DNA of 61,037 nucleotides, from the IMG/VR virus record IMGVR_UViG_3300020156_000441, positions 1-61,037 of that record; one strand, given 5' to 3'. Positions 5,211 through 51,935 of this stretch are shown piece after piece. The first letter of the stretch is position 1; the number at the start of each line of letters is the position of its first letter. Source of the stretch: a virus. Made by a program: the position numbers and the translations under genes. The notes under the pieces were generated by a model, which did no database searches, was not told where the DNA came from, and worked only from the letters and a program-made list of their open reading frames with translations.

Positions 5211-7538
5211 GTGCGGCAGGGCATGACACTGCGTCGGAAGATCCGCTGGCTGACCATCATCGGCCTGCTCGGCTGCCTGTTGGCGGCCATTCCGGCGTTG
5301 TACCTCCTGCGCCAGGGCATGATCGGCGAGCGCGAGCGGCTGGCCGCCGGGCTGGTCGAGTCCGCGCAGTCCATGCTGGCCAGCCTGAACGGCGCCGTCC
5401 AGCGTGGCGAGCTGTCGGTCAGCGACGCCCGCGCCCGCGCCACCCTGGCCGTGCAGGGGCTGGGCGGCGACGTCTTCCGCCTGACCGTCTTCACCGATGG
5501 GCAGGCGCCCGCCGGCTGGCCCGAGAGCGGCCGGGCCGTCGTCGCCACCGGCCGGTTCGAGCCGTGGGGCTGGACCATCGGCGCCGCCTTCGGCACCGCC
5601 GACCTGGACCGCGAGTTCACCCGCAACGTGCTGGCCTTCGGCGGCTTCCTGGCGCTGCTGCTGGTGCTGTCCTGGCCGCTGTCGGCCTTTTTGTCGGAAC
5701 ACGTGCTTGGGCCGCTGGAGGCGCTGTCGTCGCGCATGGCGCGCCTCACCCAGGGGCGCACGGACATCGACATCCCCGGCCAGGACCGCACCGACGAGTT
5801 CGGCGCCATGGCCCGCGCGCTGGAGTACTTCCGCCGCGCCGCCGGCGCCATCATCGAGCGCGACGAGCGGCTGTCCGGCATCATGCGCAACGTCGGCGAG
5901 GCGATCGTCCTGGTCGGCGAGGACGGCGCCATCGCCGAGCACAACCCGGCCGCCGAGTCGCTGTTCGGCCTCGCCGGCCCGGAGCTGGTCGGCCATGGTT
6001 TCGCCGCCCTGTTTGCCGAGGAGGACCGCGGCCGGGTCGAGGCCATGTTCGAGACGCGCCGGGCCAACGCGTCGGGCGGCAAGGCGGTGCGCGCCGAAGG
6101 GCTGGGCATTGAGCGCCCCGGCCAGCCGCGGGCGGAGGTGTCGCTGTCGCTGTCCGGCCTGCCGCTGGGCGGGCGGCACCACTACATCGCCGTGCTGGCC
6201 GACATCACCGAACGGCTGGAGCACGAGCGCGAGCTGCTGCGTCTCGCCACCCGCGACCGGCTGACCGGCCTGCCCAACCGCGCGCTCATCGAGTCGCTGG
6301 TGGAAAGCGCCGTCGAGCGGGCGCGCCGCCACAACCGGCGTTTCGCCGTGCTGTGCATGGACCTGTCGCGCTTCAAGCTGATCACCGACACGCTGGGCCA
6401 CCACGCGGGCGACGCCCTGCTGCTGGAGGTCGCCAAGCGCGTGCAGGCCACCGTGCGCACGGCCGACACGGTGGGCCGCATCGGCTCCGACGACTTCGCC
6501 ATCCTGCTGGAGGAGGTCGCGGATGGCGAGGAGTCCGCCGCCGTGGCCCAGCGCATCCTCACCGCCTTCGACACCCCGGTGGAACTGCTGGGGACCGAGC
6601 ACTACGTGCGCCCCTCCATCGGCATCGCGCTGTTCCCCGATCATGCCGACGACGTGCACGAGCTGATCCGCGCCGCCGACACCGCGCTGTACGCCGCCAA
6701 GCGCATGGGCGGCCGGCGCCACGCCTTCTTCCAGAAGGAGATGGCCGACCAGGCGCGCCGCCACCTGGCGCTGGACCGCGACCTGCGCGCCGCGCTCGCG
6801 GCCGGCGAATACCGGCTGCACTACCAGCCCAAGGTCTCCCTGGTCGACTTCGCGCTGGAGGGGTTCGAGGCACTGCTGCGCTGGGAACGGCCCGGCCACG
6901 GCATGGTCCCGCCCGGCGAGTTCATCCCGGTGGCCGAGGAAACCGGCTTCATCGTGCCGCTGGGCGACTGGGTGCTGGAGGAAGCCTGCCGGCAGATGCG
7001 CGAGTGGATCGATCAGGGCATGGAGCCGGTGCCGGTGGCCGTCAACATCTCGCCCCGGCAGCTGCGCCAGCGCTCCAGCGAAGACTTCCTGCGCGTCATG
7101 GCGAAGTATGCGCTCACCCCAGACCTGATCGAGCTGGAGATCACCGAGGGTGCGGTGATGCAGGACCTGGAGCACGCGCTGACCGTGCTGGAGGAGTTGA
7201 AGGCGGCCGGCGTGCGCGTGGCGGTGGATGATTTCGGCACCGGCCATTCCAGCTTGAGCTACCTGAAGCGGCTGCCGATCACGACGCTGAAGATCGACCG
7301 CTCCTTCGTCGGCGGCGTTCCGCGCGAACGCGAGGACGCCGGCATCGTCTCCACCATCATCTCCATGGCCGACCTCCTGGGCCTGACCGTGGTGGCCGAG
7401 GGGGTGGAGCGGCCGGAACAGGCGCACTTCCTGCGCCACCACAACTGCCTCGTCGTCCAGGGCTGGCTGACCGGCCGCCCGGTCCCCGCCGCCGAGGCCG
7501 CCGGCCTGCTGGAACAGCGCCTGAAGCAGCGCGCGTGA
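5211..7538 (+). CDS. Membrane GGDEF-EAL protein (c-di-GMP phosphodiesterase likely)
   Basis: The 775-residue protein has a membrane segment (about 10-32), a periplasmic loop, a second membrane segment (about 138-162), a HAMP region, a PAS domain (about 220-335), a GGDEF domain (about 344-505) and an EAL domain (about 525-770). The cyclase motif is degenerate (GSDDF, near residue 424), but an RxxD inhibitory site (RTAD) stands five residues before it. The EAL domain keeps EALLRW, NISPRQL, DDFGTG and AEGVE motifs, so c-di-GMP hydrolysis is likely. It would act at the inner membrane. It interrupts a phage head operon and is flanked by palindromes on both sides. The start may be GTG 5211 or ATG 5223; neither has ideal spacing. 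Confidence 0.93.
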   Translation: MRQGMTLRRKIRWLTIIGLLGCLLAAIPALYLLRQGMIGERERLAAGLVESAQSMLASLNGAVQRGELSVSDARARATLAVQGLGGDVFRLTVFTDGQAPAGWPESGRAVVATGRFEPWGWTIGAAFGTADLDREFTRNVLAFGGFLALLLVLSWPLSAFLSEHVLGPLEALSSRMARLTQGRTDIDIPGQDRTDEFGAMARALEYFRRAAGAIIERDERLSGIMRNVGEAIVLVGEDGAIAEHNPAAESLFGLAGPELVGHGFAALFAEEDRGRVEAMFETRRANASGGKAVRAEGLGIERPGQPRAEVSLSLSGLPLGGRHHYIAVLADITERLEHERELLRLATRDRLTGLPNRALIESLVESAVERARRHNRRFAVLCMDLSRFKLITDTLGHHAGDALLLEVAKRVQATVRTADTVGRIGSDDFAILLEEVADGEESAAVAQRILTAFDTPVELLGTEHYVRPSIGIALFPDHADDVHELIRAADTALYAAKRMGGRRHAFFQKEMADQARRHLALDRDLRAALAAGEYRLHYQPKVSLVDFALEGFEALLRWERPGHGMVPPGEFIPVAEETGFIVPLGDWVLEEACRQMREWIDQGMEPVPVAVNISPRQLRQRSSEDFLRVMAKYALTPDLIELEITEGAVMQDLEHALTVLEELKAAGVRVAVDDFGTGHSSLSYLKRLPITTLKIDRSFVGGVPREREDAGIVSTIISMADLLGLTVVAEGVERPEQAHFLRHHNCLVVQGWLTGRPVPAAEAAGLLEQRLKQRA

Positions 7539-7933: not shown

Positions 7934-8611
7934 ATGTCCACCACCGTGGCCAACGCCTTCGTCAAACAGTTCGAGCGCGAGGTGCACGAGGCCTTCCAGC
8001 GCATGGGTTCCAAGCTGCGCAACACGGTCCGTGCCAAGAACAACGTCCAGGGCGCCTCCACCGTCTTCCAGAAGGTCGGCAAGGGCACCGCCTCCACCAA
8101 GGCGCGGCACGGCCAGGTGCCGGTGATGAACGTCGAGCACGAGCCGGTGGAGTGCCTGCTGGCCGACTATTACGCCGGCGACTGGGTCGACAAGCTGGAC
8201 GAGCTGAAGACCAACATCGACGAGCGGCAGGTGATCGCCAACGCCGGCGCCTACGCGCTGGGCCGCAAGACGGACGAGCTGATCATCCTGGAACTCGACA
8301 AGTCCGCCAACCACGCCGGGGCCGCCACCGACGGCCTGACCAAGAGCAAGGTCCTGGAGGCGTTCGAGAAGATGGGCAACGCCGACGTGCCCGACGACGG
8401 CCAGCGCTACGCCGTGGTCGGCTGGAAACAGTGGAGCCAGCTGCTGGGCATCGACGAGTTCGCCAACTCCGACTACGTCGGCGCGGACGAGCTGCCCTGG
8501 CGCGGCACCCAGGCCAAGCGCTGGCTGGGCACGCTGTGGGTCCCGCATTCCGGCCTGACGCTGAAGGACGGCGCGCGCCTGTGCCACTGGAAGGCATCGG
8601 CATTGAAATAA
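7934..8611 (+). CDS. Outer phage major capsid protein, 5' part (interrupted)
   Basis: ATG at 7934 follows AAGGAG. The first 219 residues are capsid sequence (GQVPVMNVEHEPVECLLADY, DWVDKLDELKTNIDERQVIA, RYAVVGWKQWSQLL, GTQAKRWLGTLWVPHSGL), of the type found in BPP-1-like and related podophages. After ARLCHW at the repeat GCCACTGG the frame runs into the inner prophage and adds only KASALK before a stop. The missing 52 residues, starting YHKTAVGHASGADVKTD, are at 51777-51935. The truncated 225-residue protein would lack its last strand region and is unlikely to assemble properly (inference). Confidence 0.88.
   Translation: MSTTVANAFVKQFEREVHEAFQRMGSKLRNTVRAKNNVQGASTVFQKVGKGTASTKARHGQVPVMNVEHEPVECLLADYYAGDWVDKLDELKTNIDERQVIANAGAYALGRKTDELIILELDKSANHAGAATDGLTKSKVLEAFEKMGNADVPDDGQRYAVVGWKQWSQLLGIDEFANSDYVGADELPWRGTQAKRWLGTLWVPHSGLTLKDGARLCHWKASALK
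8583..8590. repeat. Left attachment core (attL) GCCACTGG
   Basis: The 8-bp sequence GCCACTGG is repeated at 51769-51776. It encodes part of CHW in the capsid. The bases on either side differ between the two copies, so the shared core is exactly 8 bp. Confidence 0.8.
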
Positions 8612-8791: not shown

Positions 8792-9865
8792 ATGACAGTC
8801 ATCGAAGCCGACGAAGCCGACGAAGCAGATGCGATCACTATTGATCGAATGATCTTCCACATCGTTGGAGCTGACCTCGCTGATCCTGACCTACTTGAAG
8901 AAATTGTGGATATCACACCTTATGCCGACTTTTTTATTGAGCGGCTAAAGTCGGCATTCCGTGGGTCTGCTTATCGCTTTAAGCACGCCTCGACTTTGCG
9001 CGACCGCGTGAGGGAAGCGTTGGATGACCCTGCCAAGTTCGTCTCCACTTCCCACACCGTGGCGCACCGCTTTCAGGAACTCTATTTGATTGATCGGCGC
9101 CTTTCCCCCGGTGCTGTTATGTTCTTCCTGTTCCGGCGGGGAGAAGAGCGACTGGCTGCGGTCATGAAGTTCGATGACACCCGCGTCATCGCCTATCGCA
9201 CCGAACTCCGTGCTGGAAGGAAGCACCCGATCCTTCAGGATCTGATGCACACCTTTGTCCAGGAGCGCACCGCCATGCAGAAGTCGGCGGTCATCGCCAT
9301 AGACGAGGATGGCGGGCGGTTGATCTGCACTGACCGGAATGGGCAGCACGGAGACCTGACGGACCGCTTCCGAGATTTTTTGGATGCGCGGCGCGAAATG
9401 TCGCATGCAGACATGACGAAGCGCCTTTTCAATGCCATCATGGCGACAGGAAAGGCATGCGCGGACGTACTGCCCAGGGAGGTGCGCAATCAACTTCGTG
9501 GCCGTGCTCGCCAAGCGTTGGACCAGATGCAGGGGTATGATCCCGAGCGTCGGGGCGAATTGGTAAATGCGGTGTTCGGCCCTCTTGACGAAGGGTCGAA
9601 AGTTCACGAAAAGTTCTCGTCGGAGCTTAAAAAGGCAAAGATCCGGGATGAGCCGATCCACTTCGACACGGCCCAGCTTCCGGCTGCCACGCGGCGCATC
9701 AAGGAGACCACCGAGGGCGTTCTGGTGGTCTACAAGGTCGAAGACGTGCAGGCTGGTACCATCCAATTCGCCGATGCTGCCGGCGGTCGGAAACGGATCA
9801 TTATCGAAACGGACGGCTATTTGATCGACGATGAGTTGGACGACAAGACTCGCATCCGCCGCTAG
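8792..9865 (+). CDS. NA37/YejK-like nucleoid-associated protein
   Basis: ATG at 8792 has GGAG 5 bp upstream; a TTG at 8753 would add a poor N-terminus. The 357-residue product matches the 37-kDa nucleoid-associated family in its layout: an opening ITIDRMIFHIV segment, SPGAVMFFLFRRGEERLAAV, AVMKFDDTRVIAYRTE, then HPILQDLMHTFVQERTAMQK and AVIAIDEDGGRLICTDRNG. Family members bind DNA. Here it is a cargo gene at the left end of the inner prophage, between the attachment site and the integrase, and overlaps the next gene by 35 bp, so the two are probably one operon. In this context a DNA-sensing role in defence is plausible but unproven. Confidence 0.75.
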   Translation: MTVIEADEADEADAITIDRMIFHIVGADLADPDLLEEIVDITPYADFFIERLKSAFRGSAYRFKHASTLRDRVREALDDPAKFVSTSHTVAHRFQELYLIDRRLSPGAVMFFLFRRGEERLAAVMKFDDTRVIAYRTELRAGRKHPILQDLMHTFVQERTAMQKSAVIAIDEDGGRLICTDRNGQHGDLTDRFRDFLDARREMSHADMTKRLFNAIMATGKACADVLPREVRNQLRGRARQALDQMQGYDPERRGELVNAVFGPLDEGSKVHEKFSSELKKAKIRDEPIHFDTAQLPAATRRIKETTEGVLVVYKVEDVQAGTIQFADAAGGRKRIIIETDGYLIDDELDDKTRIRR

Positions 9866-11198
9866 GCGATTGGCCGCAGAAGGGGGCGCCTTCAACGAGA
9901 CCGCCGACGCGCTCGTTGCCAGCGGTCGCCTTGCCGAGGTCGAGCAGTTGATGGAATGGCATGCCTTGGCGGCCAGTGCCGCCGAGCATGACATGCTGTT
10001 GACGGTACGCGACGGGATTGGCGAAGCGCTCGATGCAGGCGCATCCTCGGATGAGATCACGCTTGGTCAGGAGGTGCGCGTTCGCGTATCGAAGGGGATA
10101 GGCCCCCTCGTCCGGTTCTTCACGTTCGAAGGGCTCTGTAATGGACTTACTTCTCCAGAGATTGTCCGTCGTGCTCGTTTGATCCTAGTTGCCGAGGATT
10201 TTGCGCCCTTCCGCACGCTTTCCTGCGAGTTTCGCCCTTGGGATGTCGAGGCGGACGTACTTCCTCCGCCAGATGACCCGTCCAAGGTGGAAGTCGATCC
10301 GAGAAAACTCGTCCGGGATTTGACGGGCCACTTGCTTCCCGCGTCAGTTGATTTCTGGCTGCTGGCCGGCACTCCGGAAGAGCCATCGCGTGTGCACGAC
10401 GCCTGGGTGCACGCGTCAGCGCGAGCTCTGCTCACCCTGCCTGCGGCCGAGCTTTGGCCCGACGGGCGTGACTGCAAGGTGATGTTAGCCGGGCCGCGCA
10501 AACGCACACTTCGTATGAATGTTGATGCGTTTGATCCGCGGGGCGCCCATGGTCAGCTAACGGACGCAGTCCGTTGGGTCTGCGACGTGCCGCGGGAAGC
10601 GGAAGTGCGGCACGCGCTACTGGTAAAGCGGTTGGCGACCGAATGGCCGTCCGATGATCCGGCGTGGGAAGAGGGGCTACCCCGCGTTCTAGGTGTTGCG
10701 CTGGAAGGTGCAAAAGCCGACTACAAGGCTCATCTTCACGAGAAGACGGCGGAAACCCTCAAGGCTCTTGGGGATCTGCGAAAGGCGCTGAACGAGGAAA
10801 CGTCGAAAGTCGTTGAGCGGACGCAAGGGCTGACAGCCGCGCTTTACCGCGACTTGGCGCTTGCTGTTGGTGCGTTGTCGGTCCGTATGCTGGCGTTATC
10901 CGGTGATGGTAAGGCATTGCCCGGTACGCGTTTGGTGGTTTGGGCAATGGCGATCTGGATGATGGCCAGTCTGTGGTTGAGCTTCAATACGAACCGACGC
11001 TTCCTGCGGCTTCAGTCGCGCATGCGCGCTTCATGGCATCGCCGTATCCATGCTGTTCTGTCGAGTCGCGATTTCAATGCGCTCGCGCGGCGTCCATTGA
11101 AAGAGGCCACGAAAGCATATCGTATAACGGCCCAATGGGTAGGGCTGATCTATGTGCTTATCGCTTTCGCGCTCTTTGTGTCGGGATTCATTCTGTAA
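9831..11198 (+). CDS. Coiled-coil protein with C-terminal membrane anchor
   Basis: ATG at 9831 lies inside the end of the NA37-like gene. The 455-residue product has a soluble N-terminal region of about 300 residues with no domain I recognise, a predicted coiled coil (about 300-345, ETLKALGDLRKALNEETSKV), and two membrane segments (about 365-385 and 433-453), the last ending at the C-terminus. The topology, a sensor-like partner gene followed by a membrane protein, resembles two-gene abortive-infection modules. It is the last gene before the convergent integrase. Function is unknown. Confidence 0.7.
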   Translation: MSWTTRLASAARRLAAEGGAFNETADALVASGRLAEVEQLMEWHALAASAAEHDMLLTVRDGIGEALDAGASSDEITLGQEVRVRVSKGIGPLVRFFTFEGLCNGLTSPEIVRRARLILVAEDFAPFRTLSCEFRPWDVEADVLPPPDDPSKVEVDPRKLVRDLTGHLLPASVDFWLLAGTPEEPSRVHDAWVHASARALLTLPAAELWPDGRDCKVMLAGPRKRTLRMNVDAFDPRGAHGQLTDAVRWVCDVPREAEVRHALLVKRLATEWPSDDPAWEEGLPRVLGVALEGAKADYKAHLHEKTAETLKALGDLRKALNEETSKVVERTQGLTAALYRDLALAVGALSVRMLALSGDGKALPGTRLVVWAMAIWMMASLWLSFNTNRRFLRLQSRMRASWHRRIHAVLSSRDFNALARRPLKEATKAYRITAQWVGLIYVLIAFALFVSGFIL

Positions 11199-11211: not shown

Positions 11212-12360
11212 TCATCGTCCGAGCGCCACCACATTGTTTAGGGTCGGCTCGACCATGGCCGATGCCAGCTTGGTATACGCCGCCATCGCCAGCTTCTTCG
11301 TGCGTGCCTGATAGTCGCGCAGGCTGGTCGATGACTTGTTGGCGTGGCCGGAAATGGAACTGACCTCGGCGTCGGTGCAGCCGGCCTCGTACAGACGGGT
11401 GATCAGCGTACCGCGCAGGTCGTGCCAGTGCAGGTCCACGTCCTCACCCAACACGGCGTCGCGCAGGCTGCGCCACGCGTAGTCCACGTTGCCCGGCTCC
11501 AATGGCCGGTAGCCGCGTTCACCATCCCACGGCAGCAGGCGACCCGCGCAGTCGGGCAGGGCGAGGAGTTCGTCCATCAGCTCCTTGAGTGGCGGCAGCA
11601 GGAAGACCGGCAGCCACACCTGGGCGCCGGTGGACTTCCTGGTCTTCGACGGAATCACGTGCAGCCAACCGTCGCGGTACTGGTCGCGCCGGAGGTCGCA
11701 CATGTCGCCACGCCGCAGGCCGGTGAGCAGGGAGAAGCGCATGGCACGCTGCATGTGCGGCCCCGCGGCAGCCAGAAGCGCGGCTTCCTGTTCGGGCAGC
11801 ATGATGATGTCCTTGCGGGTGCCGTGGCCGGTAAGGCGCTTGATGCGGGCGGCGTGGTTCACGTCCACCATGCCGCGGTCATACGCGAACTGGAGCAGCA
11901 ACGACAGCAGGCCCATCATCTTGTCGGCCTTGGCCGGCGTGTCGGCCAGCTCGTCGCGCCAACCGTAGAAATCCTCGCGCACGCGGCGCCGGCCGAGGTC
12001 GGCGAAGGTCTGGAAGCCGAACTTGTCGATCACCTCTCCGATCATGCGGTCACGGTCGTGCCGTGTGCGCGGGACAAGGGTCTTGTATTCCGGGCTCTCC
12101 TGATAGGCTTTAGCGATGACCTTCCAGGCGCCTTCCGGCTTCTTCGCTTTGGATCGGCGCGGCCGGCCGGCGCGGCGGGCGCGCCGCAGGTTGGCATCGA
12201 ACTCGGCCGAACCCGGTTCACCTTCGATCTTCTGCCCGCTGATCCGGTCGTAGTGGTAGACGCGGACGGTGCCGTCAGCGAGCGTGCGCTTGACGGTGTT
12301 GATGCCCTTTGGCTTTGCGCTTGGCTTCGTGCTCGGTCCGCCGCCGCTCATAGTCGTCAT
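11212..12360 (-). CDS. int: Tyrosine-recombinase integrase
   Basis: This 382-residue protein has an N-terminal basic arm-binding region, a SAM-like core-binding domain (about 90-170) and a catalytic domain. The first arginine is in LLTGLRRGDMCDLR, the HxxR motif in LHWHDLRGTLITRLYEAG, the second histidine in SSISGHANKSST and the tyrosine in SLRDYQARTKK. It should integrate and excise the inner prophage. It is transcribed leftward and converges on the cargo pair. Its start overlaps the excisionase-like gene, typical of int/xis pairs. Confidence 0.92.
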   Translation of the reverse strand: MTTMSGGGPSTKPSAKPKGINTVKRTLADGTVRVYHYDRISGQKIEGEPGSAEFDANLRRARRAGRPRRSKAKKPEGAWKVIAKAYQESPEYKTLVPRTRHDRDRMIGEVIDKFGFQTFADLGRRRVREDFYGWRDELADTPAKADKMMGLLSLLLQFAYDRGMVDVNHAARIKRLTGHGTRKDIIMLPEQEAALLAAAGPHMQRAMRFSLLTGLRRGDMCDLRRDQYRDGWLHVIPSKTRKSTGAQVWLPVFLLPPLKELMDELLALPDCAGRLLPWDGERGYRPLEPGNVDYAWRSLRDAVLGEDVDLHWHDLRGTLITRLYEAGCTDAEVSSISGHANKSSTSLRDYQARTKKLAMAAYTKLASAMVEPTLNNVVALGR

Positions 12361-50195: not shown

Positions 50196-50400
50196 CGCTC
50201 CGTCGAGGCGCAAGATTCTGGCGAAGTGGTGGCTCAATCGGTTCTGTGATCGAGTGTTCCAAGCGATGTCGAATTGTTGTATATGGTGCGGGCGCTGGTT
50301 GGAACTTTCCGGACCGAATACTTGTGGCCTAAGGGTGAAGCTCGCTCCATGGGCGTGGCTTTCGCCGTAAATCTAGATCTCAAGGACGATGGGGAGCATT

Positions 50401-51138
50401 ATGCATCTGCGAAGAATGATCATTCCGAAGAGTATTGCAGCTCGTGCCGACGATAAAGATATGAATTTTTTCTTGTCTGCTGGGCACGTATCAAATGAAT
50501 TGGCTGTCTTAAACAAGCTTGTTTTGGTGGCTACAAATTATTCTTCTGATGAGCATATTGCGAAGTATGAGATCTCTCAATCGTTATTTTTGATTCGCAT
50601 CGCGTGTGGAAAGTTGCATGAGGCCCATGAGCTAATTAGAAAAGGCTTTAACGCTACGCAGCTGTCAAAAAAATATCGAGACACTATGGGTAGTAGCGGG
50701 CTCGTGGCACTAAAGAACTTTCAGACGTACTTCTCAACAAGTTCAAACATACTAACTCGCCTGAGGAACGATTATTCATTTCATTATGATCCAAATAATA
50801 TGACTACTAATCTGGAGGATCTTGGTGACGACGACTGGTGCGTTTATCTCACTGAGTACTCGGGAAACTCGCTATATTATATTTCTGAGGTCGCTTTAGT
50901 TGCGTCAATGGTAAAGGCCATGGGCATGTCTGATGCTAAGGGTGCTCTTAAGCGGATCCTGGAAGATTTGGGAAAATGCATTAATTGGTTCGTTGAATTT
51001 TCAGAAAGCTACATGGTGGCCTTCCTTAATAAGCACTCATCTGCGGACGATATAAATCGAGGATCGACGGTCCATGTTGTTAAGGATGCCCCTGGTTTGC
51101 GGGAGTATCGTTTGCCAACAATCGTCAAGTTACCGTAG
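50401..51138 (+). CDS. AT-rich cargo gene with a HEPN-like RxxxxxH motif
   Basis: ATG at 50401 has GGGGAG just upstream. The 245-residue product (IIPKSIAARADDKDMNFFLS, AGHVSNELAVLNKLVLVATN, SLFLIRIACGKLHEAHELIR) is nearly all helical and contains ILTRLRNDYSFHYDPNNM, whose R-x5-H fits the HEPN ribonuclease consensus R-x4-6-H. HEPN proteins act as RNases in toxin-antitoxin and phage-defence systems. The gene has much lower GC than its surroundings, a sign of recent transfer, and is followed by a terminator. Assignment to HEPN is by motif and helical character only. Confidence 0.6.
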   Translation: MHLRRMIIPKSIAARADDKDMNFFLSAGHVSNELAVLNKLVLVATNYSSDEHIAKYEISQSLFLIRIACGKLHEAHELIRKGFNATQLSKKYRDTMGSSGLVALKNFQTYFSTSSNILTRLRNDYSFHYDPNNMTTNLEDLGDDDWCVYLTEYSGNSLYYISEVALVASMVKAMGMSDAKGALKRILEDLGKCINWFVEFSESYMVAFLNKHSSADDINRGSTVHVVKDAPGLREYRLPTIVKLP

Positions 51139-51768: not shown

Positions 51769-51776
51769 GCCACTGG
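51769..51776. repeat. Right attachment core (attR) GCCACTGG
   Basis: Second copy of the 8-bp core. The base after it (51777) begins the codon that continues the outer capsid frame. Confidence 0.8.
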
Positions 51777-51935
51777 TACCACAAGACGGCGGTCGGCCAC
51801 GCCTCGGGTGCGGATGTGAAGACCGACGTGACGTGGCATGGCGACCGCGCCTCGCACTTCGTCAACAACATGATGAGCCAGGGCGCCTGCCTCATCGACC
51901 CCACGGGCGTCGTCACGCTGCGCTGCCTCGAATAG
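51777..51935 (+). pseudogene. Outer phage major capsid protein, 3' part (separated)
   Basis: The frame reads YHKTAVGHASGADVKTDVTW, HGDRASHFVNNMMSQGACLI, DPTGVVTLRCLE and then TAG at 51933-51935. It has no ribosome binding site or start of its own. Joined at the 8-bp core to the 5' part (7934-8590) it gives one continuous 271-residue capsid protein. Capsid C-termini of this type commonly end with a GA-x-LIDPTGVV-type strand, which supports the join. Confidence 0.88.

Follow-up and report, generated by a model that had tools for sequence, protein, structure and literature searches.

Near one end of a prophage that is itself inserted in another prophage lies a pair of overlapping genes, the first encoding a protein of the NA37/YejK family and the second a membrane protein of a family without a described name, and the two may together make up an anti-phage defence unit. 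The pair was found in the window (the whole stretch of DNA analysed here, 61,037 nucleotides, which is an IMG/VR virus record). We hold it to be an evenly poised question whether this is an undescribed anti-phage system of the Alpha- and Gammaproteobacteria, one in which a YejK-type protein would be devoted to immunity and connected to a membrane effector family of its own, and which would stand as a third independent coupling of DNA recognition to the membrane beside RexAB and Kiwa. The more specific explanation that we prefer, and hold only tentatively, is that the pair is a single mobile two-gene unit of defence against phages or other elements, carried as prophage cargo and following the RexAB order of events. 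A first-pass annotation had proposed a defence role from the layout of the two genes; that interpretation is partly supported by the evidence below, with protection as the candidate function on grounds of sequence and analogy.

The gene pair and its nested prophage setting

The overlapping two-gene arrangement described in the first-pass annotation is real, with both reading frames intact (Table 1), and the pair at a second locus (L002) overlaps by the identical length. Because the partner frame opens before the stop codon of the NA37 gene ends in 42 of 44 full-length pairs, the overlap cannot be put down to chance. The GC3 of the two genes (0.67 for the NA37 gene, 0.64 for the partner gene, against a window median of 0.88) is the lowest among the 26 called window genes of at least 200 aa, a ranking made with a gene caller that prefers high GC3 and misses genes of low GC3, among them that at 50389-51138 (0.46).

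Table 1. Features of the gene pair and its surroundings in the window (positions of the window; residues are those of the partner protein).
Feature	Position	Strand	Remarks
Outer-prophage major capsid gene, N-terminal part	7934..8590	+	Phage_capsid_2, E 2.7e-63; ~219 codons; cut by the insertion
attL core GCCACTGG	8583..8590	+	8-bp repeat common to 51769-51776
NA37/YejK-type protein gene	8792..9865	+	357 aa, intact; probable DNA-binding component, from sequence
Overlap of the NA37 and partner genes	9831..9865	+	35 bp
Membrane partner protein gene	9831..11198	+	455 aa, intact; family without a described name
Long helix of partner (residues 279-357)	10665..10901	+	predicted in AF2 model; holds the family's most conserved motif, around GDLRK..L.EE
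First, weaker membrane segment (residues 342-358)	10854..10904	+	predicted; family-mean Kyte-Doolittle 1.48 over 17 residues
Second membrane segment (residues 369-385)	10935..10985	+	predicted; family-mean hydropathy 1.99
Third membrane segment (residues 436-452)	11136..11186	+	predicted; family-mean hydropathy 2.16
Tyrosine integrase, inner prophage	11212..12360	-	Pfam Phage_integrase, E 6.9e-12; phrog_1, E 3.6e-35; convergent with the pair
attR core GCCACTGG	51769..51776	+	8-bp repeat common to 8583-8590
Outer-prophage major capsid gene, C-terminal part	51769..51935	+	completes the frame of the 7934..8590 part

When the flanks are joined at the 8-bp core, an uninterrupted, in-frame major capsid protein results, and the pair is therefore located, as had been proposed, between the attachment site attL and the integrase. 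A 12-base stretch beside the attL core recurs in inverted sense near the right end. The inner prophage so delimited spans some 43 kb (8583-51768), interrupts the capsid gene of a second prophage, and by PHROGs carries genes for a large terminase, a portal, primases and an endolysin; the outer prophage contributes a head-tail adaptor and a tail protein, and its capsid protein finds its nearest named phage in Pelagibacter phage Hodr (53.9% identity). The NA37 and partner genes are thus carried by the inner prophage as cargo, beside its integrase.

Such a position, near the end of one prophage that lies within another, would also suit a role in excluding superinfecting phages or in controlling the carrier prophage, with the pair acting only on related phages or on the interrupted outer prophage, and the pairs in other phage records, namely a Mu-like phage (L009) and IMG/VR proviruses (L022-L024), likewise lie near an end. 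Most of the copies seen, however, are on plasmids or on bacterial contigs with no prophage evident there, and we regard this explanation as quite improbable.

A divergent branch of the NA37/YejK family

By sequence and by predicted structure, the first protein belongs to the NA37/YejK family, much as the first-pass annotation had called it, and has the YejK fold. It matches Pfam NA37 (PF04245) at E 2e-11 and 44.3 bits (cut-off 24.6), and this family is matched by all nine members of its close family that were searched (E up to 10; best 2.8e-15). Its AF2 model (mean pLDDT 80.7) matches E. coli YejK (9be2) both by Foldseek (E 1.4e-7, probability 1.00, TM 0.39, rmsd 13.7) and by VIA (Z 15.0, 286 residues aligned, rmsd 12.9); the low TM and the Foldseek rmsd suggest that the domains are perhaps placed differently from those of YejK. 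By analogy with YejK-type proteins, we infer that this protein binds DNA.

Family and fold are thus common to the window protein and YejK/NdpA, from which it differs in representing a divergent branch tied to a membrane partner. A search of a Pseudomonas genome (G006) with the NA37 protein returned the paired gene only, so the NA37 proteins of the pair stand far from chromosomal NdpA. RexA, the DNA-binding protein of the RexAB system, is missing from the VIA matches listed for the model, an absence that excludes nothing; the fold matched is that of YejK.

The N-terminal domain (residues 1-198) also aligns in VIA with two structures of the Kiwa protein KwaB, 9nyu (Z 4.2, rmsd 4.2, 126 residues aligned) and 9mtn (Z 4.0, rmsd 4.1, 124 aligned), although the tool's own note places Z values of about 4 in the range of chance, and proteins without any relation score equally high in the same list. 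These alignments bear on the main rival to a RexAB order. Kiwa is described as consisting of a membrane protein that senses and a DNA-binding, non-cutting protein that blocks the phage genome (PMC12904381), and a Kiwa-like order here would have the membrane protein sense phage attachment or injection and bring the NA37 protein to the membrane, so that it coats the entering DNA and blocks replication and transcription, with membrane damage unneeded. The general composition is the same, and the faint fold resemblance of the N-terminal domain points in this direction, but no sequence link to KwaA or KwaB was seen: the KwaB family (PF16162) has no match among nine NA37 family members in Pfam (E up to 10), the 19 Pfam rows obtained for 15 partner family members at the same threshold include no KwaA-type family, and PADLOC-DB 2.0.0 (2023) returns no family for either protein of the pair at E up to 10. 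Membership in Kiwa was set aside; a further search for PF16162, in 13 genomes, gave no match even in its controls and so carries no weight either way. A Kiwa-like order of events, as distinct from membership, is one that we judge unlikely without dismissing it.

A membrane partner of a family without a name

The partner protein is without a family in PADLOC, Pfam and NCBIfam, all searched at E up to 10, and in PHROGs it gives a single row at chance level (E 0.36). Searched against the PDB by sequence and profile it yields chance matches only (best E 0.32), and its model has no fold match in the PDB or in the viral library at E <= 0.001. That AF2 model (pLDDT 78.2) places an alpha/beta N-terminal part before a middle part, the long helix and the C-terminal helices.

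The first-pass annotation had the protein ending in a coiled coil and two membrane segments, of which the membrane segments were borne out and the coiled coil was not. In a hydropathy profile averaged over 15 family members there are three peaks in place of two, and three C-terminal membrane segments, following some 340 soluble residues, are probably the better prediction from sequence. The coiled coil lacks support because the strongest hydrophobic period of the long helix, among nine tested, is 3.6 and not 3.5. Positively charged loops of membrane proteins tend to be cytoplasmic (the positive-inside rule); the stretch between the second and third segments averages 8.8 Lys/Arg against 5.2 acidic residues and would therefore be cytoplasmic, which would leave the C-terminus of the partner outside.

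Whether the C-terminal helices form a pore was considered from VIA rows for the model, which include a spectrin repeat (Z 10.6), CorA (7.1) and the AhlB/SmhB pore proteins (about 7), all aligned to these helices only. No pore was read from these rows, as such scores are at chance level for helical bundles by the tool's note, and the predicted fold carries no clear pore sign. The architecture is unlike that of the Kiwa membrane protein, and the two belong to different families.

Co-occurrence and co-inheritance

In tblastn searches of 72,556 plasmid records and 50,697 phage records, the partner matched 12 plasmid records and one phage record; for the NA37 protein there were 11 plasmid records and none from phages. 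Ten of the plasmid records and the one phage, vB_ThpS-P1 (L009), were examined among these matches; the phage does in fact carry a full NA37 gene (545-1597 of L009), missed by tblastn, which overlaps the partner gene by 11 bp. A profile search of genome and viral contigs added 12 further loci, and scans of the same contigs with single proteins found no relative.

When the loci and the window were scanned with both family profiles, the NA37 gene proved adjacent to the partner gene in 50 of 51 partner-bearing loci, which bears out the co-occurrence that the first-pass annotation had proposed to look for; the two adjoin on the same strand in 49, are rearranged in one (L021), and in the remaining locus (L007) the NA37 gene is absent at an IS26. 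One locus (L012) holds a broken NA37 gene alone. These 51 loci are non-independent, some being near-identical, and L018 and L022 give one and the same pair.

Whole-genome draws lead to the same result. Within the Rhizobiaceae draw, the NA37 gene occurs in 10 of 297 genomes and the partner gene in the identical ten; with the centre genome removed, nine of 296 have both, for which the probability by chance is 2e-17. Over all draws, 32 genomes (centres included) have a true partner match, and in every one of the 32 the NA37 gene is adjacent, with a broken frame in three. The trees of the two families also co-vary, with a Mantel r of 0.88 over 37 dereplicated full-length pairs, a value reached in none of 2000 permutations (best 0.17). 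From this correlation and the shared occurrence it follows that the NA37 and partner genes are co-inherited, which does not by itself prove contact between the proteins; stable co-inheritance would suit a complex, which speaks for a Kiwa-like order.

Distribution, mobility and decay

The spread of the pair over the Alpha- and Gammaproteobacteria is patchy. Centres included, matches number 17 of 328 genomes in the Pseudomonadaceae draw, 10 of 297 in the Rhizobiaceae and 4 of 299 in the Acetobacteraceae (families inferred from those centre loci that carry a name), and two class-wide draws have a true match in 2 of 385 and 1 of 369 genomes. The raw tallies, before removal of false matches, were 3/385, 2/369, 10/297, 5/299 and 17/328. 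Two of the class-draw matches, G088 and G609, look like ABC permeases, judged by eye from their reading frames, and a third (G1169; 43 positions, E 6.7e-4) appears similar; all three were dropped from the counts.

The pair is mobile, being found on plasmids, in prophages and on islands as well as in the Mu-like phage already mentioned. Both genes are present in seven of the ten plasmid records examined, with a shortened partner in one. Broken or rearranged copies are common (L007, L011, L019, L021, L085, L094 and L099). A fixed third gene in the operon was sought among 345 neighbour proteins from 36 loci and rejected, the widest cluster covering six loci and the next four.

These results bear on two further alternatives. 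According to the first, the pair would regulate or maintain its carrier element, the NA37 protein tuning expression, transfer or silencing and the partner tethering it to the membrane, for example in segregation or conjugation. There is a precedent in NdpA2 of the ICE PAPI-1, an NA37-type protein described as helping to control transfer (PMC8565334), and on large plasmids several copies of the pair have relaxase, ParB-like or T4SS genes nearby. Against this, the carriers are unrelated to one another (phage, plasmid and island) and share no constant third gene, and copies of the pair are frequently broken and have defence genes as neighbours. NdpA2, moreover, is reported to be 97% identical to chromosomal NdpA (PMC8565334), from which the NA37 proteins of the pair are far removed, and in the available part of that report it is described beside an RHH regulator and not beside a membrane partner. 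We consider such a role in element upkeep rather improbable.

The second is that the two genes form an addiction module of the toxin-antitoxin kind, in which the membrane protein would be the toxin and the NA37 protein its antitoxin, as their overlap, the presence of a membrane toxin candidate and the carriage on mobile DNA might suggest. But the partner frame stays open at L094 despite a broken NA37 frame, L007 keeps most of the partner without the NA37 gene, and both proteins are large for such pairs, so that this explanation has very little likelihood.

Neighbouring genes

The pair keeps company with defence genes to a greater extent than control regions do. At E <= 1e-10, 120 genes beside 20 pairs match 87 PADLOC models, against 8 for 120 control genes, figures that count models and not proteins, with controls taken from arbitrary places in the same genomes and unmatched for mobile DNA. 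The contrast overstates the number of defence genes because one protein can match many models; a single HamB-like neighbour matches 23. Of ten neighbours checked singly (hand-picked from the 120, mostly for size), four were matched, as HamB-like, as HEC-06/Orf5/SspE (GmrSD-like), as a type I restriction protein (REase_I) and, weakly, as DpdH, and six were unmatched.

In Pfam, the 120 genes beside pairs include four integrases, two GmrSD, two HSDR_N and two Fic matches, none of which appears among the 25 Pfam matches listed for the control genes. Many neighbours are nonetheless ordinary genes, and all were taken from our own rough caller, which disfavours low GC3 and may have a few frames wrong. 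On a plasmid of Methylocystis heyeri (L004:13509-24862), the pair adjoins DUF262 genes and a four-gene PLD/DUF1156/DUF3780/DUF499 island annotated as anti-phage.

Known systems and a proposed order of events

Mobility, low GC3, position at a prophage end, decay and the neighbouring defence genes all fit the reading of the pair as defence cargo. The likeness of its layout to abortive-infection systems, in which the sensing of foreign nucleoids would set off membrane damage, was drawn in the first-pass annotation and holds for RexAB-type systems, one of which causes membrane damage: RexABpp, from prophage P1 of Pseudomonas putida, is described as a pair of DNA-binding and membrane proteins that defends against phage with damage to the membrane (PMC12894663). 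In RexAB more generally, the DNA-binding protein is proposed to detect complexes of phage DNA with protein and to open the membrane effector (PMC12894663; PMC11077077). What the systems share is a two-gene unit on a prophage, in which a DNA-binding protein that is cytoplasmic and non-specific is paired with a membrane protein; this composition is known for RexAB of lambda and RexABpp (PMC12894663; PMC11077077) and predicted here.

The proteins themselves differ. RexA is described with an RdgC-like fold, whereas the first protein of our pair is modelled as YejK-type; RexB and RexBpp are described with four predicted membrane helices, whereas the partner has a large soluble N-terminal part and, by family hydropathy, probably three C-terminal segments. 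On our best reading, then, the pair belongs to neither the RexAB nor the Kiwa family.

In the mechanism that we prefer, the first protein would bind DNA and recognise some feature of the genome of an infecting phage, for instance an intermediate of replication or recombination, and, once engaged, would act on the second. In the partner, the signal would then be relayed by the cytoplasmic N-terminal part and the long helix to the membrane segments, which would damage or depolarise the membrane, so that growth would stop before phage are made. The sequence of events would be that of RexAB, carried out by unrelated protein families. For the direction of signalling we lean towards the RexAB order on account of the large soluble part that precedes the membrane segments, which suggests receipt of a cytoplasmic signal.

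In the literature searched, judged by its listings and short of preprints and most subscription journals, no NA37 protein with a membrane partner is named as a defence system, and a recent description may exist. A temperate phage with an NA37-type gene in its integrase cluster, as here, has been described, and the likeness is by description only; that description, so far as available, mentions no membrane partner.

If the preferred reading is correct, one branch of a family of nucleoid proteins that is familiar from chromosome biology and the control of transfer would have an immune role, and a nameless family of membrane effectors would be added to those described. The pairing of a DNA-binding with a membrane protein would then be a recurring solution (RexAB, Kiwa and the present pair), and which protein senses and which kills would become a directly testable question across three unrelated families. 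At 2.4 kb the pair is compact, and it occurs in about one in twenty of the Pseudomonadaceae sampled, so that cloning and testing it should be easy.

Other observations

In Thiobacimonas phage vB_ThpS-P1, the annotated NA37 gene starts too late, at 752 in L009; its frame opens upstream of this, and the pair stands at the end of the genome. In the window, the gene at 50389-51138, which encodes 249 aa and lies near attR, is probably a second cargo gene of foreign origin in the inner prophage. The inner prophage disrupts, perhaps reversibly, the capsid gene of a Pelagibacter-podovirus-like prophage (7934-51935), which is an unusual arrangement. Between a scaffold-like gene and the capsid gene of that outer prophage, at 5211-7538, lies a gene for a 775-aa protein with what appear by eye to be PAS, GGDEF and EAL domains.
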